A DNA stretch of 57,365 nt, from contig CANFOQ010000013.1 in the NCBI GenBank assembly GCA_947448745.1, positions 1-57,365 of the forward strand. Direction: 5' to 3'. Origin of the DNA: Comamonadaceae bacterium. Its GTDB lineage: Bacteria; Pseudomonadota; Gammaproteobacteria; Burkholderiales; Burkholderiaceae_C. The position numbers were made by a program, and so were the translations under genes. A model generated the notes under the pieces. It made no database searches, was not told the DNA's origin, and saw only the letters and a program-made list of their open reading frames with translations. The number at the start of each line of letters is the position of its first letter. Position 1 is the first letter of the stretch. Positions 37,634 through 57,037 of the stretch are shown piece by piece.

Positions 37634-37759
37634 TCAGTGCGTGTGCTGCACGTCGCTGCTGCACCGCTCTTGAGCGAACGATTCAAGAAACGGCAGCTGC
37701 GCCCGATACTCTTTGGGCGAGGGAAAGCAAGTTGCCAGTTTCAGACCGTCCTCGCTCAT
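37634..37759 (-). CDS. small hypothetical ORF
   Basis: 41 codons from ATG 37759 (MSEDGLKLATCF...). No match recognised. It follows the cyclopropane synthase gene in the same direction after 56 bp and no clear Shine-Dalgarno is seen. It may be noncoding; listed because nothing else explains this 185-bp gap except a short GC-rich hairpin and a T7 run near 37802-37811. Confidence 0.25.
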   Translation of the reverse strand: MSEDGLKLATCFPSPKEYRAQLPFLESFAQERCSSDVQHTH

Positions 37760-37815
37760 AGCCCTGGTTTTAAGGGCGCGCCTTGTGCGCCGGGGACGGT
37801 CGCCTTTTTTTCCCC

Positions 37816-38979
37816 TCAGCGATAAGCCCCAGGCAAGCCCTTGGGCGACATCAGCATTTGCCAAATTTGCGTGCTGCGGGCGCGGAAGCTGCCCGCGCTG
37901 GCCAACAGGTGGTAGCGCCACAGTCGGTAAAAACGCTCGTCATAGGCCAAGCGCAATTGCGGCCAGGCCAATTCAAAACGCTGGTGCCAAAGCAGCAAGC
38001 TGCGGTCGTGGTCGGCCCCCAAGTTGTGCACGTCTTCGACGACGAAATGCTGTTGCGCGTGGTCGGTGACATCGCTCAAGCTGGGCAACTGGGCCTGGCC
38101 CAAGATGTGTTTTTCCATCCACGGCTCGAGCAGCTGGCCACGCTGGTCGTTGCCCATGGTTTCCAGCAGCAACATGCCGTCTTTTTTCAGGCTGCGCCGC
38201 GCTGCCGCAAAAAACGCCGGGTCGTTGGCTTGCACGGTTTGGCTGAGCATCCCCAAAGACACCACCACGTCAAATTGGCTGCGGCCATCGGCGTTGAACT
38301 GGCGGTAATCGGCCAGCTCGATTTGCACCGGCAGGTTGGTGCTGCGGCTTTGGCCCAACTGCATCTGCGCTGGGGTGTGCGTGAGGCCAACGGCCTGCAC
38401 GCCGTGGTGCTTGGCGGCATAGCGCAGGAAACTGCCCCAGCCGCAGCCCATGTCGAGCAAGCGCATGCCGGGTTGCAGCTTCAGTTTGCGGCAAATTTGC
38501 GCCATCTTGGCTTCTTGGGCTTGGCTGAGCGTGCTGGCACCCTCGTCCCAGCAGGCGCTGCCGTGGTTCATGTCGGCGTCCAGCATGGCGGCGAACAAGG
38601 GGTTGGAGAAGGTGTATTGGGCGCGGCCGACGATGCGCGATGGGCCCACCGGCAGGCGCTTGGACCACTGCGCCAACCAGCTGTGCAGGTGTGCGCGTGG
38701 CGTGCCCAGGTGCTCGTGCAAGCGGGCACGCACCATGCGGGTCATCATCTGGTCGATGGCTGGGCATTCCCACCAGCCGTCCATGTAGCTCTCGCCCAGG
38801 CCCAGGCTGCCCTCGCGCATGATGCGGCTGAGGGTTTGGGGGTGTTTGATTTGAAGGTCCCAAGGGCGGCTGCCATTGAGGTGGATATCGGCTGAGGCCA
38901 GCAACTGCGCAAACCAAGGACCGCTGGTTTGACCGGCGCTTGGCTTGGCGCGCGGTAGCGTGCTGATGACGGTGGACAT
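37816..38979 (-). CDS. cfa: cyclopropane-fatty-acyl-phospholipid synthase
   Basis: 387 residues, near the 382 of E. coli Cfa. It transfers a methylene group from SAM to double bonds of membrane phospholipid acyl chains. The SAM motif LLDMGCGWGSF is at 174-184; DMNHGSACW holds Cys143 at the active-site place; MEKHILGQAQLPS is the conserved substrate segment, and RLWRYHLLASAGSFRAR near the end is family-typical. AGGGAG lies upstream of the ATG. AT-rich sequence upstream holds the promoter. Its neighbour upstream is the REP/toxin patch. Confidence 0.9.
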   Translation of the reverse strand: MSTVISTLPRAKPSAGQTSGPWFAQLLASADIHLNGSRPWDLQIKHPQTLSRIMREGSLGLGESYMDGWWECPAIDQMMTRMVRARLHEHLGTPRAHLHSWLAQWSKRLPVGPSRIVGRAQYTFSNPLFAAMLDADMNHGSACWDEGASTLSQAQEAKMAQICRKLKLQPGMRLLDMGCGWGSFLRYAAKHHGVQAVGLTHTPAQMQLGQSRSTNLPVQIELADYRQFNADGRSQFDVVVSLGMLSQTVQANDPAFFAAARRSLKKDGMLLLETMGNDQRGQLLEPWMEKHILGQAQLPSLSDVTDHAQQHFVVEDVHNLGADHDRSLLLWHQRFELAWPQLRLAYDERFYRLWRYHLLASAGSFRARSTQIWQMLMSPKGLPGAYR

Positions 38980-39086
38980 GGTCCGGACTCCCTGTGAGAA
39001 ATGGAGTCGGATATTACCAATTAATTATTCATTTGTTTGATTTAAATATGCAATTAAGGTTTATTTTTTGGCGGCAAGGTGGAGTA

Positions 39087-39107
39087 ATTGGGGTCAGATT
39101 CCAATTG
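39087..39107 (+). repeat. REP-like palindrome, copy 1
   Basis: AATTGG-N9-CCAATT with internal GGTCAGATT. It lies between cfa and mazF. A degenerate extra piece (GGGGGTCAG) at 39118-39126 supplies the mazF stop codon region. Confidence 0.9.
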
Positions 39108-39123
39108 TTTTGGTTGATGGGGG

Positions 39124-39474
39124 TCAGCGGATTGGGAGCAACACTTTCAATTTGGCCAGCACTTCAGCCACCACTTCATCCGCCGCCCGCCCCGCCAATT
39201 TGGCTTGGCGAATTTGCCAATCCATGCTGCGCAGTTGATCGGCCAGCACCACGCCTTTCAACCCTTTGGAGCCCACCAACTCAACCTCAAACGGATAGCC
39301 TTTGACCTGCGTCGTCACCGGGCAGCACAACATCAAGCCGGTCGCCGCGTTGTAGGCTTTCGGCGAAAGCACCAGCGCCGGTCTGTGCCCAGCTTGCTCA
39401 TGGCCCGCTTGAGGGTCGTGCTCAAGCCACACCACATCCCCGGCGTCTGGCGCAGCGGCTTTGCGTGTCACCAT
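39124..39474 (-). CDS. mazF: MazF/PemK-type toxin (endoribonuclease)
   Basis: 116 residues. MazF fold signatures are DAGDVVWLEHDPQAGHEQAGHRPALVLSP in parts (GDVVWL, GHRPALVLSP), LMLCCPVTTQVKGYPFEV (in part) and VLADQLRSMDW near 75-88, including the catalytic region. MazF toxins cut mRNA at short motifs. It overlaps the antitoxin gene by seven bases. The stop codon TGA lies in CTGACCCCC, a REP-like sequence. Confidence 0.9.
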   Translation of the reverse strand: MVTRKAAAPDAGDVVWLEHDPQAGHEQAGHRPALVLSPKAYNAATGLMLCCPVTTQVKGYPFEVELVGSKGLKGVVLADQLRSMDWQIRQAKLAGRAADEVVAEVLAKLKVLLPIR

Positions 39475-39707
39475 GTTTCGCGGCCGACCGGCGCACCAAA
39501 ATCAACCAGTTCATGCTGATTTTGTGCATTGATTTGATCAACCATGTCTTTCAAGTTGTAGGCTTTGGCAGCGGGCTTGAGCACGATATGGCCGTCCACT
39601 GTTTCCAACTCCAGACGATCGCCAAGGGCGATTTGCAGGTCTTTCATGGCTGCTGCAGGCAGGCGCACTGCGCTGCTGTTGCCCCATTTCACGACTTCTA
39701 ATTGCAT
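39468..39707 (-). CDS. mazE: MazE-type antitoxin (AbrB fold)
   Basis: 79 residues. The swapped-hairpin AbrB domain is shown by KWGNSSAVRLPAAAM at residues 6-20 and GDRLELE; the acidic C-terminal tail (HELVDFGAPVGRE) would wrap MazF. ATG 39707 is taken; GTG 39710 is adjacent. Gene order antitoxin-toxin with overlap is standard. A TACATTGTA dyad upstream is a likely operator. Confidence 0.9.
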   Translation of the reverse strand: MQLEVVKWGNSSAVRLPAAAMKDLQIALGDRLELETVDGHIVLKPAAKAYNLKDMVDQINAQNQHELVDFGAPVGRETW

Positions 39708-39729
39708 CACTCCACCCCTTGTAAAGTAG

Positions 39730-39740
39730 ATACATTGTAT
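39730..39740. promoter_or_regulatory. operator-like dyad before mazE
   Basis: ATACA-T-TGTAT, perfect 5-bp dyad about 25 bp upstream of mazE, overlapping a TACAAT -10 candidate on the minus strand. Suits autorepression by MazE/MazEF. Confidence 0.45.
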
Positions 39741-39776
39741 ATCCTCTTGCCAAGATGTTCGGCGTCAGATTCCGGT

Positions 39777-39797
39777 AATTGGGGTCAGATTCCAATT
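39777..39797 (+). repeat. REP-like palindrome, copy 2
   Basis: Same 21-bp palindrome as copy 1, between mazE and the second toxin gene. A degenerate half (GGCGTCAGATTCCG) lies directly before it at 39761-39774. Confidence 0.9.
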
Positions 39798-39808
39798 GTT
39801 TTCATGTG

Positions 39809-39837
39809 AAGACAAAAGGCACACGCCCGCCTAGAAT
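39809..39837 (+). promoter_or_regulatory. promoter of the second toxin-antitoxin pair
   Basis: AAGACA (39809-39814), 17 bp, TAGAAT (39832-39837), placed between REP copy 2 and the toxin start. Confidence 0.45.
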
Positions 39838-39845
39838 CTCCCCCC

Positions 39846-40139
39846 ATGAAGCCATTTCGCTGGCACCCCGCTAAAAACGAGACGCTGTTGAAAGATCGAC
39901 AAGTGTGTTTTGAAGCCATGGTGGTCGCCATCGAAGCCCATGGTTTGTTGGATGTGCTGGCGCATCCCAACCCGTCCAAATACCCCCATCAAAAAATGCT
40001 GGTCGTGGCCCATGATGGCTACGTTTTTTTGGTGCCGATGGTGGAAGAGGCAGACTATTTCTTCCTCAAAACCATCATCCCCAGCCGCAAAGCCACACGC
40101 GACTACTTGAACCCAGGAACGACCGATGAAAAAACTTGA
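39846..40139 (+). CDS. BrnT-like toxin of a type II toxin-antitoxin pair
   Basis: 97 residues. It opens FRWHPAKNETLLKDRQVCFE, the layout of BrnT-like RelE-fold toxins (FEWD-x-K-N...L...R-x-VSFE), and has HDGYVFLVPMVE and FLKTIIPSRKATRDYL in the C-terminal half, the latter like the T-x-Y-P-S-R-K/R-x-x-x-x-Y end of this group. Overlaps the CopG-like antitoxin by 14 bases. Order toxin-antitoxin matches BrnT-BrnA. Assignment is by pattern only. Confidence 0.7.
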   Translation: MKPFRWHPAKNETLLKDRQVCFEAMVVAIEAHGLLDVLAHPNPSKYPHQKMLVVAHDGYVFLVPMVEEADYFFLKTIIPSRKATRDYLNPGTTDEKT

Positions 40140-40398
40140 TGTCGAAGAACAAAGCATCCTCAGCGCCTACGAGGCTGGGGCGCTCACATCCGTGGCCAGC
40201 AAAGCAGAATTGGCCAAGTTCAAAGCGGCGGCCCGCAGCACGGCCGTCAAAGACAAGCGGGTCAATATCCGCCTGTCTTCAGGTGACCTGAGCGACATCC
40301 AGATCAGGGCCTTGCAAGAGGGTGTGCCCTATCAAACCTTGATTGCCAGCGTGCTGCACAAATACGTCACGGGTCGCTTGTCCGACACCAACTCTTGA
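40126..40398 (+). CDS. CopG-like (BrnA/CopG_antitoxin) antitoxin
   Basis: 90 residues. The second half, VNIRLSSGDLSDIQIRALQEGVPYQTLIAS in parts (VNIRLSSGDL, QEGVPYQTLI), is a ribbon-helix-helix with the G-x-P-Y-Q-T-L-I motif of CopG_antitoxin proteins. The basic N-terminal half would bind the toxin. Overlapping gene order supports translational coupling with the preceding toxin. Confidence 0.82.
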   Translation: MKKLDVEEQSILSAYEAGALTSVASKAELAKFKAAARSTAVKDKRVNIRLSSGDLSDIQIRALQEGVPYQTLIASVLHKYVTGRLSDTNS

Positions 40399-40431
40399 GT
40401 TGGCAACCCTGAGGGGATGGTTCTGTTTGGT

Positions 40432-40452
40432 AATTGGGGTCAGATTCCAATT
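40432..40452 (+). repeat. REP-like palindrome, copy 3
   Basis: Same 21-bp palindrome, 33 bp after the antitoxin stop. Confidence 0.9.
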
Positions 40453-40753
40453 GTTCATTTTTCTGGTCTTTCGCTCCAAAAATGGTCCCCAGGCCGTGCG
40501 GCTCTAGGTGGTTTTTGGAGGTGCCCAAAATGCCTTGTTTTGAGGGGGTGGTCAGCAGGGACGGGGCTTACGGGCGTTTTTATGATACATAAATTCAAAG
40601 TTTTGCCGTTTCTTTGTATCACGTGGCGCGGAATAATCACTTCAGCTTGGCGAACATGGTGGGTCGGGCGCGTAGCGAACGTCGCAGCTCCGCTGCGGTG
40701 AGCGGCGGACGAGCCCACCGTGGTCGGCAAGCCGCGTGACTTCCAAACCAAAC
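40453..40753. other. gene-free structured spacer between inverted REP copies
   Basis: 301 bp without a supportable gene. Positions 40645-40732 form a long imperfect inverted repeat: GCTTGGCGAACATGGTGGG pairs with the complement of CCCACCGTGGTCGGCAAGC, with the hairpin CGCAGC-tcc-GCTGCG at its apex. REP copies 3 and 4 face each other on either side, so the unit resembles a non-autonomous, MITE- or BIME-like element. Confidence 0.55.
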
Positions 40754-40774
40754 AATTGGAATCTGACCCCAATT
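40754..40774 (-). repeat. REP-like palindrome, copy 4 (inverted)
   Basis: Same 21-bp palindrome in opposite orientation to copies 1-3. Confidence 0.9.
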
Positions 40775-40788
40775 ACCCCAAACCAAAC

Positions 40789-40809
40789 AATTGGAATCTG
40801 ACCCCAATT
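40789..40809 (-). repeat. REP-like palindrome, copy 5 (inverted)
   Basis: Second inverted copy, 14 bp after copy 4 with the same AACCAAAC flank, so a 35-bp unit is duplicated. Confidence 0.9.
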
Positions 40810-40831
40810 ACCCCAATTACCCCAATTACCG
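40802..40831. repeat. 9-bp tandem repeat at the hisD 3' end
   Basis: CCCCAATTA repeated three times after copy 5, running into the hisD stop codon; on the minus strand TAATTGGGG, the first TAA being the stop itself. Confidence 0.85.
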
Positions 40832-42172
40832 GGGTTTGAGCCGCATTTCCGCCGCCCGGGCATGGGCCTGCAAACCCTCGCCGTGCGCCAGCACCGAGGC
40901 GGTCAGGCCCAGCACTTGCGCACCCGCCTCGGACACCTCGATCAAGCTGCTGCGCTTTTGGAAGTCGTACACGCCCAGTGGCGATGAAAACCGCGCCGTG
41001 CCCGAGGTGGGCAGCACGTGGTTGGGGCCAGCGCAGTAGTCGCCCAAACTCTCGCTGGTGAAGGCGCCCAAAAAGATCGCGCCTGCATGGCGCAGCAGCG
41101 GCTCCCAGCGGTGCGGCTCGTTGCTCGACACCTCCAGGTGCTCGGGCGCAATCCGGTTGCTGATGGCGCAAGCCTCTTCCATGCTGCGGGTGTGGATGAG
41201 CGCACCGCGCCCGTTCAAGGACGCGCGGATGATGTCTTGGCGCGGCATCTCGGGCAGCAGCCGGTCGATGGCGGCTTGCACCGCGTCGATGTAGGCGGCG
41301 TCCGGGCACAACAAAATGCTTTGCGCCAGCTCGTCGTGCTCGGCCTGGCTGAACAAGTCCATCGCCACCCAGTCGGCGGGCGTCGTGCCATCGGCCAACA
41401 CCAAAATTTCAGACGGCCCGGCGATCATGTCGATGCCCACCGTGCCAAACACACGGCGCTTGGCCGCGGCCACATAGGCGTTGCCGGGGCCGGTGATTTT
41501 GTCGACCGCGGGCACGGTGGCGGTGCCATAGGCCAGCGCGGCCACGGCCTGTGCGCCGCCGATGGTGAAGGCGCGGCTGACGCCGGCCACATAGGCGGCG
41601 GCCAACACCAAGGGGTTTTTCTCGCCATGTGACGCGCCCGCTGCGCTGCGGTCTTTGGCGGGCGTGGGCACGACCATGATGATTTCGCCGACACCGGCCA
41701 CGTGGGCGGGAATCGCGTTCATCAAAACGCTGGAAGGGTAGGCGGCTTTGCCGCCGGGCACATAGATGCCCACGCGGTCGAGCGGCGTGACTTTTTGGCC
41801 CAGCAAAGAACCATCGGCGTCGCGGTATTGCCAGCTCTCGCCCGATGCTTTTTTCTGCGCCTCGTGGTAGCTGCGCACCCGGGCGGCGGCGTCTTGCAAC
41901 GCGGTTTTTTGCGCGGCCGGCAAGCTCTCGAACGCGGCTTTCAACTCGGCTTGCGTCAGCTCCAGCGCCGCCATGTTGTCGGCTTGCAAACCATCGAAAC
42001 GCGCGGTGTACTCGAGCACCGCGGCGTCACCGCGTTGTTTCACAGCGGCCAAGATGTCAGCCACGCGCTGCTCGATGGCGGCGTCGGTGTCGGCCGACCA
42101 ATGCAAGCGCTGTTGAAACAGGGTTTCAAAATCGGCTTGGGCGGTGGACAAACGAAGTGGGCGGGCGGTCAT
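40826..42172 (-). CDS. hisD: histidinol dehydrogenase
   Basis: 448 residues from ATG 42172 ([10 protein letters not shown]). Catalyses the last two steps of histidine synthesis with zinc and NAD. Motifs include [19 protein letters not shown] near 125, [12 protein letters not shown] near 220, [11 protein letters not shown] near 245 and EHLEV near 345. The frame is open upstream to a TTG at 42235 because the first 45 bases are duplicated there. The stop codon TAA belongs to the REP-associated repeat. Last gene of the 14-gene run. Confidence 0.93.
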
Positions 42173-42235
42173 GAAAGTGAGGGGGTTGAAGGAATCAAAA
42201 TCTTGGGTGGACAAACGACGTGGACGGGCGCTCAA
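42126..42235 (-). repeat. imperfect duplication of the hisD start region
   Basis: The segment from the hisD ATG ([16 protein letters not shown], 42126-42172) has an imperfect upstream copy ([14 protein letters not shown], 42195-42235) in the same frame, 63 bases apart. The upstream copy begins with TTG overlapping the hisG stop. Confidence 0.8.
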
Positions 42236-56192: not shown

Positions 56193-56213
56193 AATTGGGG
56201 TCAGATTCCAATT
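56193..56213 (+). repeat. REP-like palindrome, copy 6
   Basis: Same 21-bp palindrome, between the gltB promoter and the RAYT gene. A partial copy (TAATTGGGGACAGATGAG) at 56241-56258 encodes the last codons of the RAYT gene. Confidence 0.9.
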
Positions 56214-57016: not shown

Positions 57017-57037
57017 AATTGGAATCCGACCCCCATT
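57017..57037 (-). repeat. REP-like palindrome, copy 7 (diverged)
   Basis: Inverted copy with internal changes (ATCCGACCCCC for ATCTGACCCC), upstream of the RAYT gene and 27 bp before the thioredoxin-like gene. Confidence 0.75.

Follow-up and report, generated by a model that had tools for sequence, protein, structure and literature searches.

Palindrome copies and toxin-antitoxin genes between cfa and hisD

The first 57,365 nucleotides of contig CANFOQ010000013.1 of a Comamonadaceae bacterium (assembly GCA_947448745.1), hereafter the window, carries between cfa and hisD two toxin-antitoxin (TA) gene pairs and repeated copies of a 21-bp palindrome, AATTGGGGTCAGATTCCAATT, referred to below as a repetitive extragenic palindromic (REP) element. 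As summarized in Table 1, the five exact copies claimed by an earlier sequence-only reading of this DNA were all located, at 39086-40809, copy 1 beginning one base before the start of 39087 given there. The positions of genes and copies likewise bore out its claim that a mazF/mazE pair and a BrnT-like/CopG-like pair each lie between two palindromes; both pairs stand between direct, not inverted, REPs. The promoter-like sequence ascribed to each pair did not hold up, since one promoter-like site was found against a shuffle mean of 1.1, i.e., no excess.

Table 1. Features of the window relevant to the REP-TA association.
Feature	Position	Strand	Basis or remark
cfa, cyclopropane fatty acyl phospholipid synthase (flank)	37816..38979	-	NF008686 425.4 bits
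REP copy 1	39086..39106	+	exact match to AATTGGGGTCAGATTCCAATT; 5' side of cfa
mazF-like toxin gene, 116 aa	39124..39474	-	PF02452 E 3.9e-26; NF007386 149.3 bits (cut-off 120)
mazE-like antitoxin gene, 80 aa	39468..39710	-	PF04014 E 1.2e-11, above cut-off
REP copy 2	39777..39797	+	exact match to AATTGGGGTCAGATTCCAATT; separates the two TA pairs
BrnT-like toxin gene, 97 aa	39846..40139	+	PF04365 20.7 bits, below cut-off 34.5
CopG-like antitoxin gene, 90 aa	40126..40398	+	PF12441 27.4 bits, slightly below cut-off 28
REP copy 3	40432..40452	+	exact match to AATTGGGGTCAGATTCCAATT
Dispersed repeat module A	40453..40508	+	genome-wide repeat comparison
Dispersed repeat module B	40509..40626	+	genome-wide repeat comparison
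Dispersed repeat module C	40637..40746	+	genome-wide repeat comparison
REP copy 4	40754..40774	-	exact match to AATTGGGGTCAGATTCCAATT
REP copy 5	40789..40809	-	exact match to AATTGGGGTCAGATTCCAATT; 3' end of hisD
hisD	40826..42235	-	TIGR00069 506.7 bits
REP copy, one side of RAYT gene	56193..56213	+	exact match, sixth in window
RAYT gene, 231 aa	56240..56935	-	NF047646 82.9 bits (cut-off 80); PF01797
REP copy, other side of RAYT gene	57017..57037	-	2 mismatches to full 21-mer

The first pair is a type II MazEF module, with matches to both the MazF and MazE families in adjacent genes, and neither gene of the second pair reaches its Pfam cut-off for a BrnT/BrnA type II module (Table 1). An AlphaFold2 model of the BrnT-like protein (pLDDT 93.4) was nearest to YafQ, ParE, and RelE-type toxins; the best Foldseek match was YafQ (E 0.025, probability 0.98, TM 0.44), with nothing at E 0.001 or better, and the sequence profile searched against solved chains gave a single match, a 'toxin', at E 0.097. 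At these weak scores, it is plausible that the protein is a toxin of RelE-superfamily-like fold. The DNA directly upstream of brnT is kept in relatives.

At the other end of the array, tandem repeats of GGTAATTGG, with which the REP begins, lie at 40802-40830 between copy 5 and hisD, and they contain the hisD stop codon. The nearest named hisD genes were from Comamonadaceae, namely metagenome-assembled genomes named Comamonadaceae bacterium and Rhodoferax, and Limnohabitans.

Identity and genomic abundance of the palindrome

The window also holds a gene for a REP-associated tyrosine transposase (RAYT), which sits between inverted copies of the palindrome, at 56193 (+) and 57017 (-). This arrangement, which supported the earlier claim of a REP-type family linked to a RAYT, was also found in genomes G002 and G003 (loci L179 and L193), and the RAYT gene was syntenic in genome G356. 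According to PMC3733652, and as also given in PMC6006769, the terminal inverted repeats (TIRs) of such transposases have the motif GGGGWSAS, and GGGGTCAG, part of the 67-copy 21-mer, matches it. No conserved GTAG/GTGG head was seen beside the palindrome across the 67 exact copies: the preceding four bases were variable, the commonest tetranucleotide being GGGT (7/67), and the adjoining base was T in 44 of the 67. Because the RAYT gene is flanked by inverted copies, GGGGWSAS fits, and a GTAG head is lacking, the palindrome can be assigned from these sequence features as a previously unlisted member of the RAYT/TIR kind of repeat and not as a REP in the strict GTAG sense.

In the source genome (2.45 Mb, 67 contigs), the exact copies comprised 33 forward and 34 reverse, and 105 near copies (55 + 50) were counted at up to 3 mismatches, as opposed to no exact and no near copies of the backwards-read control pattern. 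Counting the source genome, 13 of the 61 searched genomes of the genus carried an exact copy, with at most 6 copies in each other genome, and the pattern gave no match in the viral contigs searched. Contigs C16, C35, C41, C49, and C59 end a few hundred bases from REPs, so that arrays there may be incomplete or misjoined.

Clusters of REPs and dispersed partner repeats

The 34 stretches fetched around the listed copies, together with the window, cover 101 of the 105 near copies, and these group into 36 clusters. Random occurrence in all gaps of the genome, which the sequence-only reading had named as counting against it, is thus excluded by the zero-copy reversed control and by this clustering. 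The 301-bp interval between copies 3 and 4, described earlier as a structured spacer, proved to be a row of repeats from three dispersed families, designated A, B, and C. A known structured RNA was ruled out there, as an Rfam search of 38900-40900 gave no match at E up to 1. The three repeat families are about 50, 100, and 100 bp long, 63 of their 67 genomic pieces fall within 300 bp of a REP, and their order and orientation differ from cluster to cluster. Neighbouring REPs 50-400 bp apart showed the + - arrangement in 16 of 26 pairs, and those separated by less than 50 bp in only 7 of 27; inverted pairs at 27-28 bp occur at loci L031, L036 (two), L039, and L051.

Separately, a REP-encoded tail, LGSDSN, ends two proteins, a LolD-like ABC ATPase (L058 2051-2737) and an acyl-CoA ligase (L037 2276-3823).

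Gene content of the intervals between REPs

Twelve REP-REP intervals of at least 400 bp were found in the source genome, two of which held repeats only and ten of which held genes: the RAYT gene in one, TA modules in five, and other genes in four. The two TA pairs of the window are thereby joined by three further intervals of the same layout, which extends the pattern originally described: another mazF-like gene accompanied by a small unassigned partner (L035), vapBC (L049), and a Gp49/HTH pair (L058). The four others hold tatD, the acyl-CoA ligase gene, a TPR lipoprotein-like gene, and a DUF2442 gene; the last lies between REP clusters at L037 4382-4813, with no partner gene recognised there. 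In relatives, REP intervals contain ureE, a Usp gene, and a thioredoxin gene, the last beside a RAYT gene. The Gp49/HTH module is probably broken, cut short at the REP, because its HTH antitoxin gene (L058 2739-2936) ends 3 bp from the REP and its product covers only positions 3-22 of the 55-position Pfam profile, below cut-off.

A census of toxin genes in the source genome counted 31 (PemK 4, PIN 21, Gp49 2, ParE 3, BrnT-like 1), the Gp49 figure comprising matches above cut-off with a third, sub-threshold match left out. Five of the 31 lie between REPs, and three more PIN pairs adjoin one REP. ParE, the only family picked blind, had none of its three genes between REPs, and the other four families were picked since they had already been seen in REP intervals, so that the area-based P of 1.5e-6 is biased. 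The interval count (five of nine gene-bearing intervals, that of the RAYT gene set aside) is fairer, though the base rates against which it is judged are assumed. With 21 PIN-domain matches above cut-off in 2.45 Mb, the genome (G000) looks TA-rich.

TA modules without REPs

To the cassette-array idea of the sequence-only reading, these counts give partial support: TA pairs between REPs recur, but REPs are not required by TA modules, and non-TA genes are bracketed as well. BrnT-like genes were detected in 34 of 299 genomes of the family, the source genome included. The comparison covered 29 loci out of 38 matches outside the source genome, with flanks up to 1.5 kb, and in 28 of these BrnT/CopG loci the available flanks contained no REP at up to 5 mismatches, the remaining one having a REP about 750 bp off. 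In 21 of the 29, nucleotide similarity starts at 39803-39812, 6-15 bp past REP 2, so that the brnT module with its upstream DNA is whole, the REP lying just outside it. Likewise, 20 mazF loci from viral contigs all lacked a REP within 3 mismatches. The occurrence of both pairs without flanking palindromes, an outcome that had been named as speaking against the cassette idea, was thus largely what was found. A plasmid search returned 48 records, none spanning 80% of the query; in the 20 listed, similarity was confined to mazF/mazE.

The original idea that REPs form built-in borders of the TA modules is therefore not supported, given the BrnT loci, the viral mazF loci, and the REP-free argH-ppc relatives described below. 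TA-specific REP borders are ruled out by the 28 REP-free BrnT loci, by the vapBC modules standing without REPs at argH-ppc, and by the bracketed non-TA genes. TA modules do not need REPs.

The same data bear on whether REPs serve the TA modules as terminators or as insulators, holding each pair apart as a unit of its own. REPs lie near gene ends and could form stems, judging from their sequence; against this, three terminator-like sites were counted in the region versus a shuffle mean of 2.7, no excess, nearly all BrnT loci do without REPs, and the L058 HTH antitoxin gene is truncated at one. We regard such a role as very improbable.

Variable slots in related genomes

The argH-ppc and lolD-tatD slots were searched in 31 genome entries, and stretches from part of them were compared (the rows of G006 and G356 are identical, and these are probably one genome). 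The gene beside ppc is argininosuccinate lyase by Pfam, hence argH, and lolD is a by-eye label on the ABC ATPase gene. Both slots vary in content and are mostly REP-free among the compared genomes.

At argH-ppc (L049 1407-3697; L292, L295, L297, L299), the source genome carries a PIN/Phd pair, REP+C+A, vapBC, and again REP+C+A. The same vapBC (76% nucleotide identity) is REP-free in G015; in G016 both TA modules are present, separated by a GNAT gene, and no REP occurs as far as 83 bp beyond vapBC, where the compared stretch ends; in G356 a hipA gene adjoins a HipB-like one, named by position and sequence as it gave no Pfam match, also with no REP; and G024 has a gap of 45 bp. Since vapBC stands REP-free in G015 and G016, the REPs at this slot are most simply read as having arrived after the TA module.

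The reverse order would apply at lolD-tatD. There, the source genome has, in an 812-bp slot, REP+, the Gp49/HTH pair, B, and REP-, while G014 and G013 have REP+ A REP- in 204 and 163 bp, respectively. Gaps free of REPs were found in G016 (12 bp), G015 (74 bp), G356 (156 bp), G023 (41 bp), and G042 (70 bp); G024 has 1864 bp with a CsgG-like gene, and a LysR-type gene follows lolD in G011, G048, and G053. At this slot the REP frame would most likely have preceded the TA module. Seven of eight own loci with both flanks found share their REP sites with relatives, which is not an unbiased rate, as the relatives' loci (L179-L198 and L199-L228) were chosen for bearing REPs.

The lolD-tatD slot speaks for REP-to-REP recombination, in which REPs would act as short homologies, their ends being kept and the contents swapped, with TA modules as frequent passengers. 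Its interiors differ among G000, G014, and G013, whose sequences immediately beyond the right REP are similar, and the shuffled order and orientation of A, B, and C among clusters point the same way. It is nevertheless a single TA slot, the common stretch measures just 21-30 bp, the bases kept or lost at the junctions are not the same, and G016, 85% alike at tatD, has its 12-bp gap without a REP. Recombination of this kind is accordingly judged fairly unlikely.

At the cfa-hisD site itself, REPs within 3 mismatches were found at hisD in one of 80 relative loci. This locus, L066, from the same genome as G356, has a single REP-like copy (2 mismatches) after hisD, in the place and orientation of copy 5, and reads hisD, REP-like copy, 11 bp, a 72-bp piece, sbmA. 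It thus resembles the empty one-copy site that the sequence-only reading had proposed to look for, in that one REP and no TA genes are present, but cfa is missing too, and the two sites differ over a whole block of roughly 3 kb. Near hisD, none of the 80 relative loci yielded cfa, mazEF, or BrnT/CopG genes at E up to 1e-5, some loci being cut by contig ends. The 72-bp piece beside the L066 hisD REP, which has inverted ends, is 96% alike to one at 37739-37808 of the window, between sbmA and cfa.

The L066 site also fits a RAYT-driven composite, in which a REP-ended TA segment would be excised and inserted as a unit via single-stranded DNA. The RAYT gene is itself REP-bracketed, the Gp49/HTH segment starts and stops in inverted REPs, and REPIN excision in sequencing reads is described in PMC3116915. 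On the other side, no TA module was found twice with REP borders among the compared loci, the window pairs lie between direct REPs, and TA modules occur REP-free; moreover, REP cleavage is reported in vitro (PMC8266576), and PMC6006769 states that evidence for mobility of these transposase genes is lacking. A composite of this type is considered quite unlikely.

Proposed explanation

We consider it probable (about 0.64) that REP clusters and TA modules accumulate in the same tolerant intergenic slots and do not form a true cassette system. Under this explanation, the RAYT/TIR palindrome would have multiplied in the lineage, presumably with the RAYT as maker of the copies, and REPs with their partner repeats A, B, and C would cluster at a small number of places, chiefly between genes and in many cases abutting a gene's 3' end. 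TA modules would be independent residents of such sites, coming and going for their own reasons, so that bracketing could arise in two orders: REPs may land beside an existing TA module, as suggested for argH-ppc, or a TA module may enter in or beside an existing REP site, as suggested for lolD-tatD and possibly hisD. The common cause would then lie in how tolerant a site is and not in any mechanism specific to REPs. The observations on which this explanation is grounded are the clusters, the partner repeats, the TA modules in REP intervals, and the REP-less relatives of both the TA modules and the slots.

Several points weigh against shared tolerance as the whole account. The five TA modules in nine non-RAYT gene-bearing intervals are richer than passive crowding easily yields (P = 3e-5 if TA modules made up 5% of short units of this size and 9e-4 if they made up 10%, both rates assumed). 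The REP ends at lolD-tatD look common to G000, G013, and G014 around different interiors, which fits REP-guided exchange; the published REPIN excision indicates that REP-bounded units may move; and the order of events at cfa-hisD could not be polarised. Since the interval count exceeds the assumed base rates of 5-10%, REP-guided exchange retains a real share of the probability. Its most general form, in which REP pairs would be fixed docking frames and the RAYT or REP-REP recombination would exchange what lies in them, with TA modules circulating as REP-bounded passengers and arrays growing outward from an ancestral REP, as at hisD, is held to be doubtful.

Relation to known systems and implications

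Among the systems described, TIRtrons/TIRYT and RAYT-REP systems, as described in PMC3733652 (Di Nocera 2013), PMC2817692, and PMC6006769, resemble the present case in the Y1 transposase gene lying between inverted copies of a dispersed palindrome, in the GGGGWSAS fit of GGGGTCAG, and in the pairs and clusters often found at gene ends. Unlike them, the present case lacks the GTAG/GTGG head and shows the partner repeats A, B, and C as well as gene-sized intervals, often with TA modules. REPINs and REPIN clusters (PMC3116915) share the inverted REP pairs, whereas the spacers of the present genome are in many cases long, mosaic, or gene-bearing. At the E. coli REPtron locus, a TA operon stands in place of other content (PMC6006769), which is alike in that a TA operon replaces other content at a REP-linked site and unlike in that this is the RAYT locus there and several other REP sites here. 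The titles and abstract openings retrieved in literature searches contained no report of TA modules with REPs or of REP cargo genes, although such a report may still be in print.

The lolD-tatD and argH-ppc slots, with their variable content among relatives, make both shared tolerance and exchange within REP frames directly testable. If the co-location reflects shared tolerance only, it serves as a warning against calling palindrome-bounded TA pairs cassettes, and if REP frames do exchange their contents, this would give a gene-moving role to a family of domesticated single-strand transposases.

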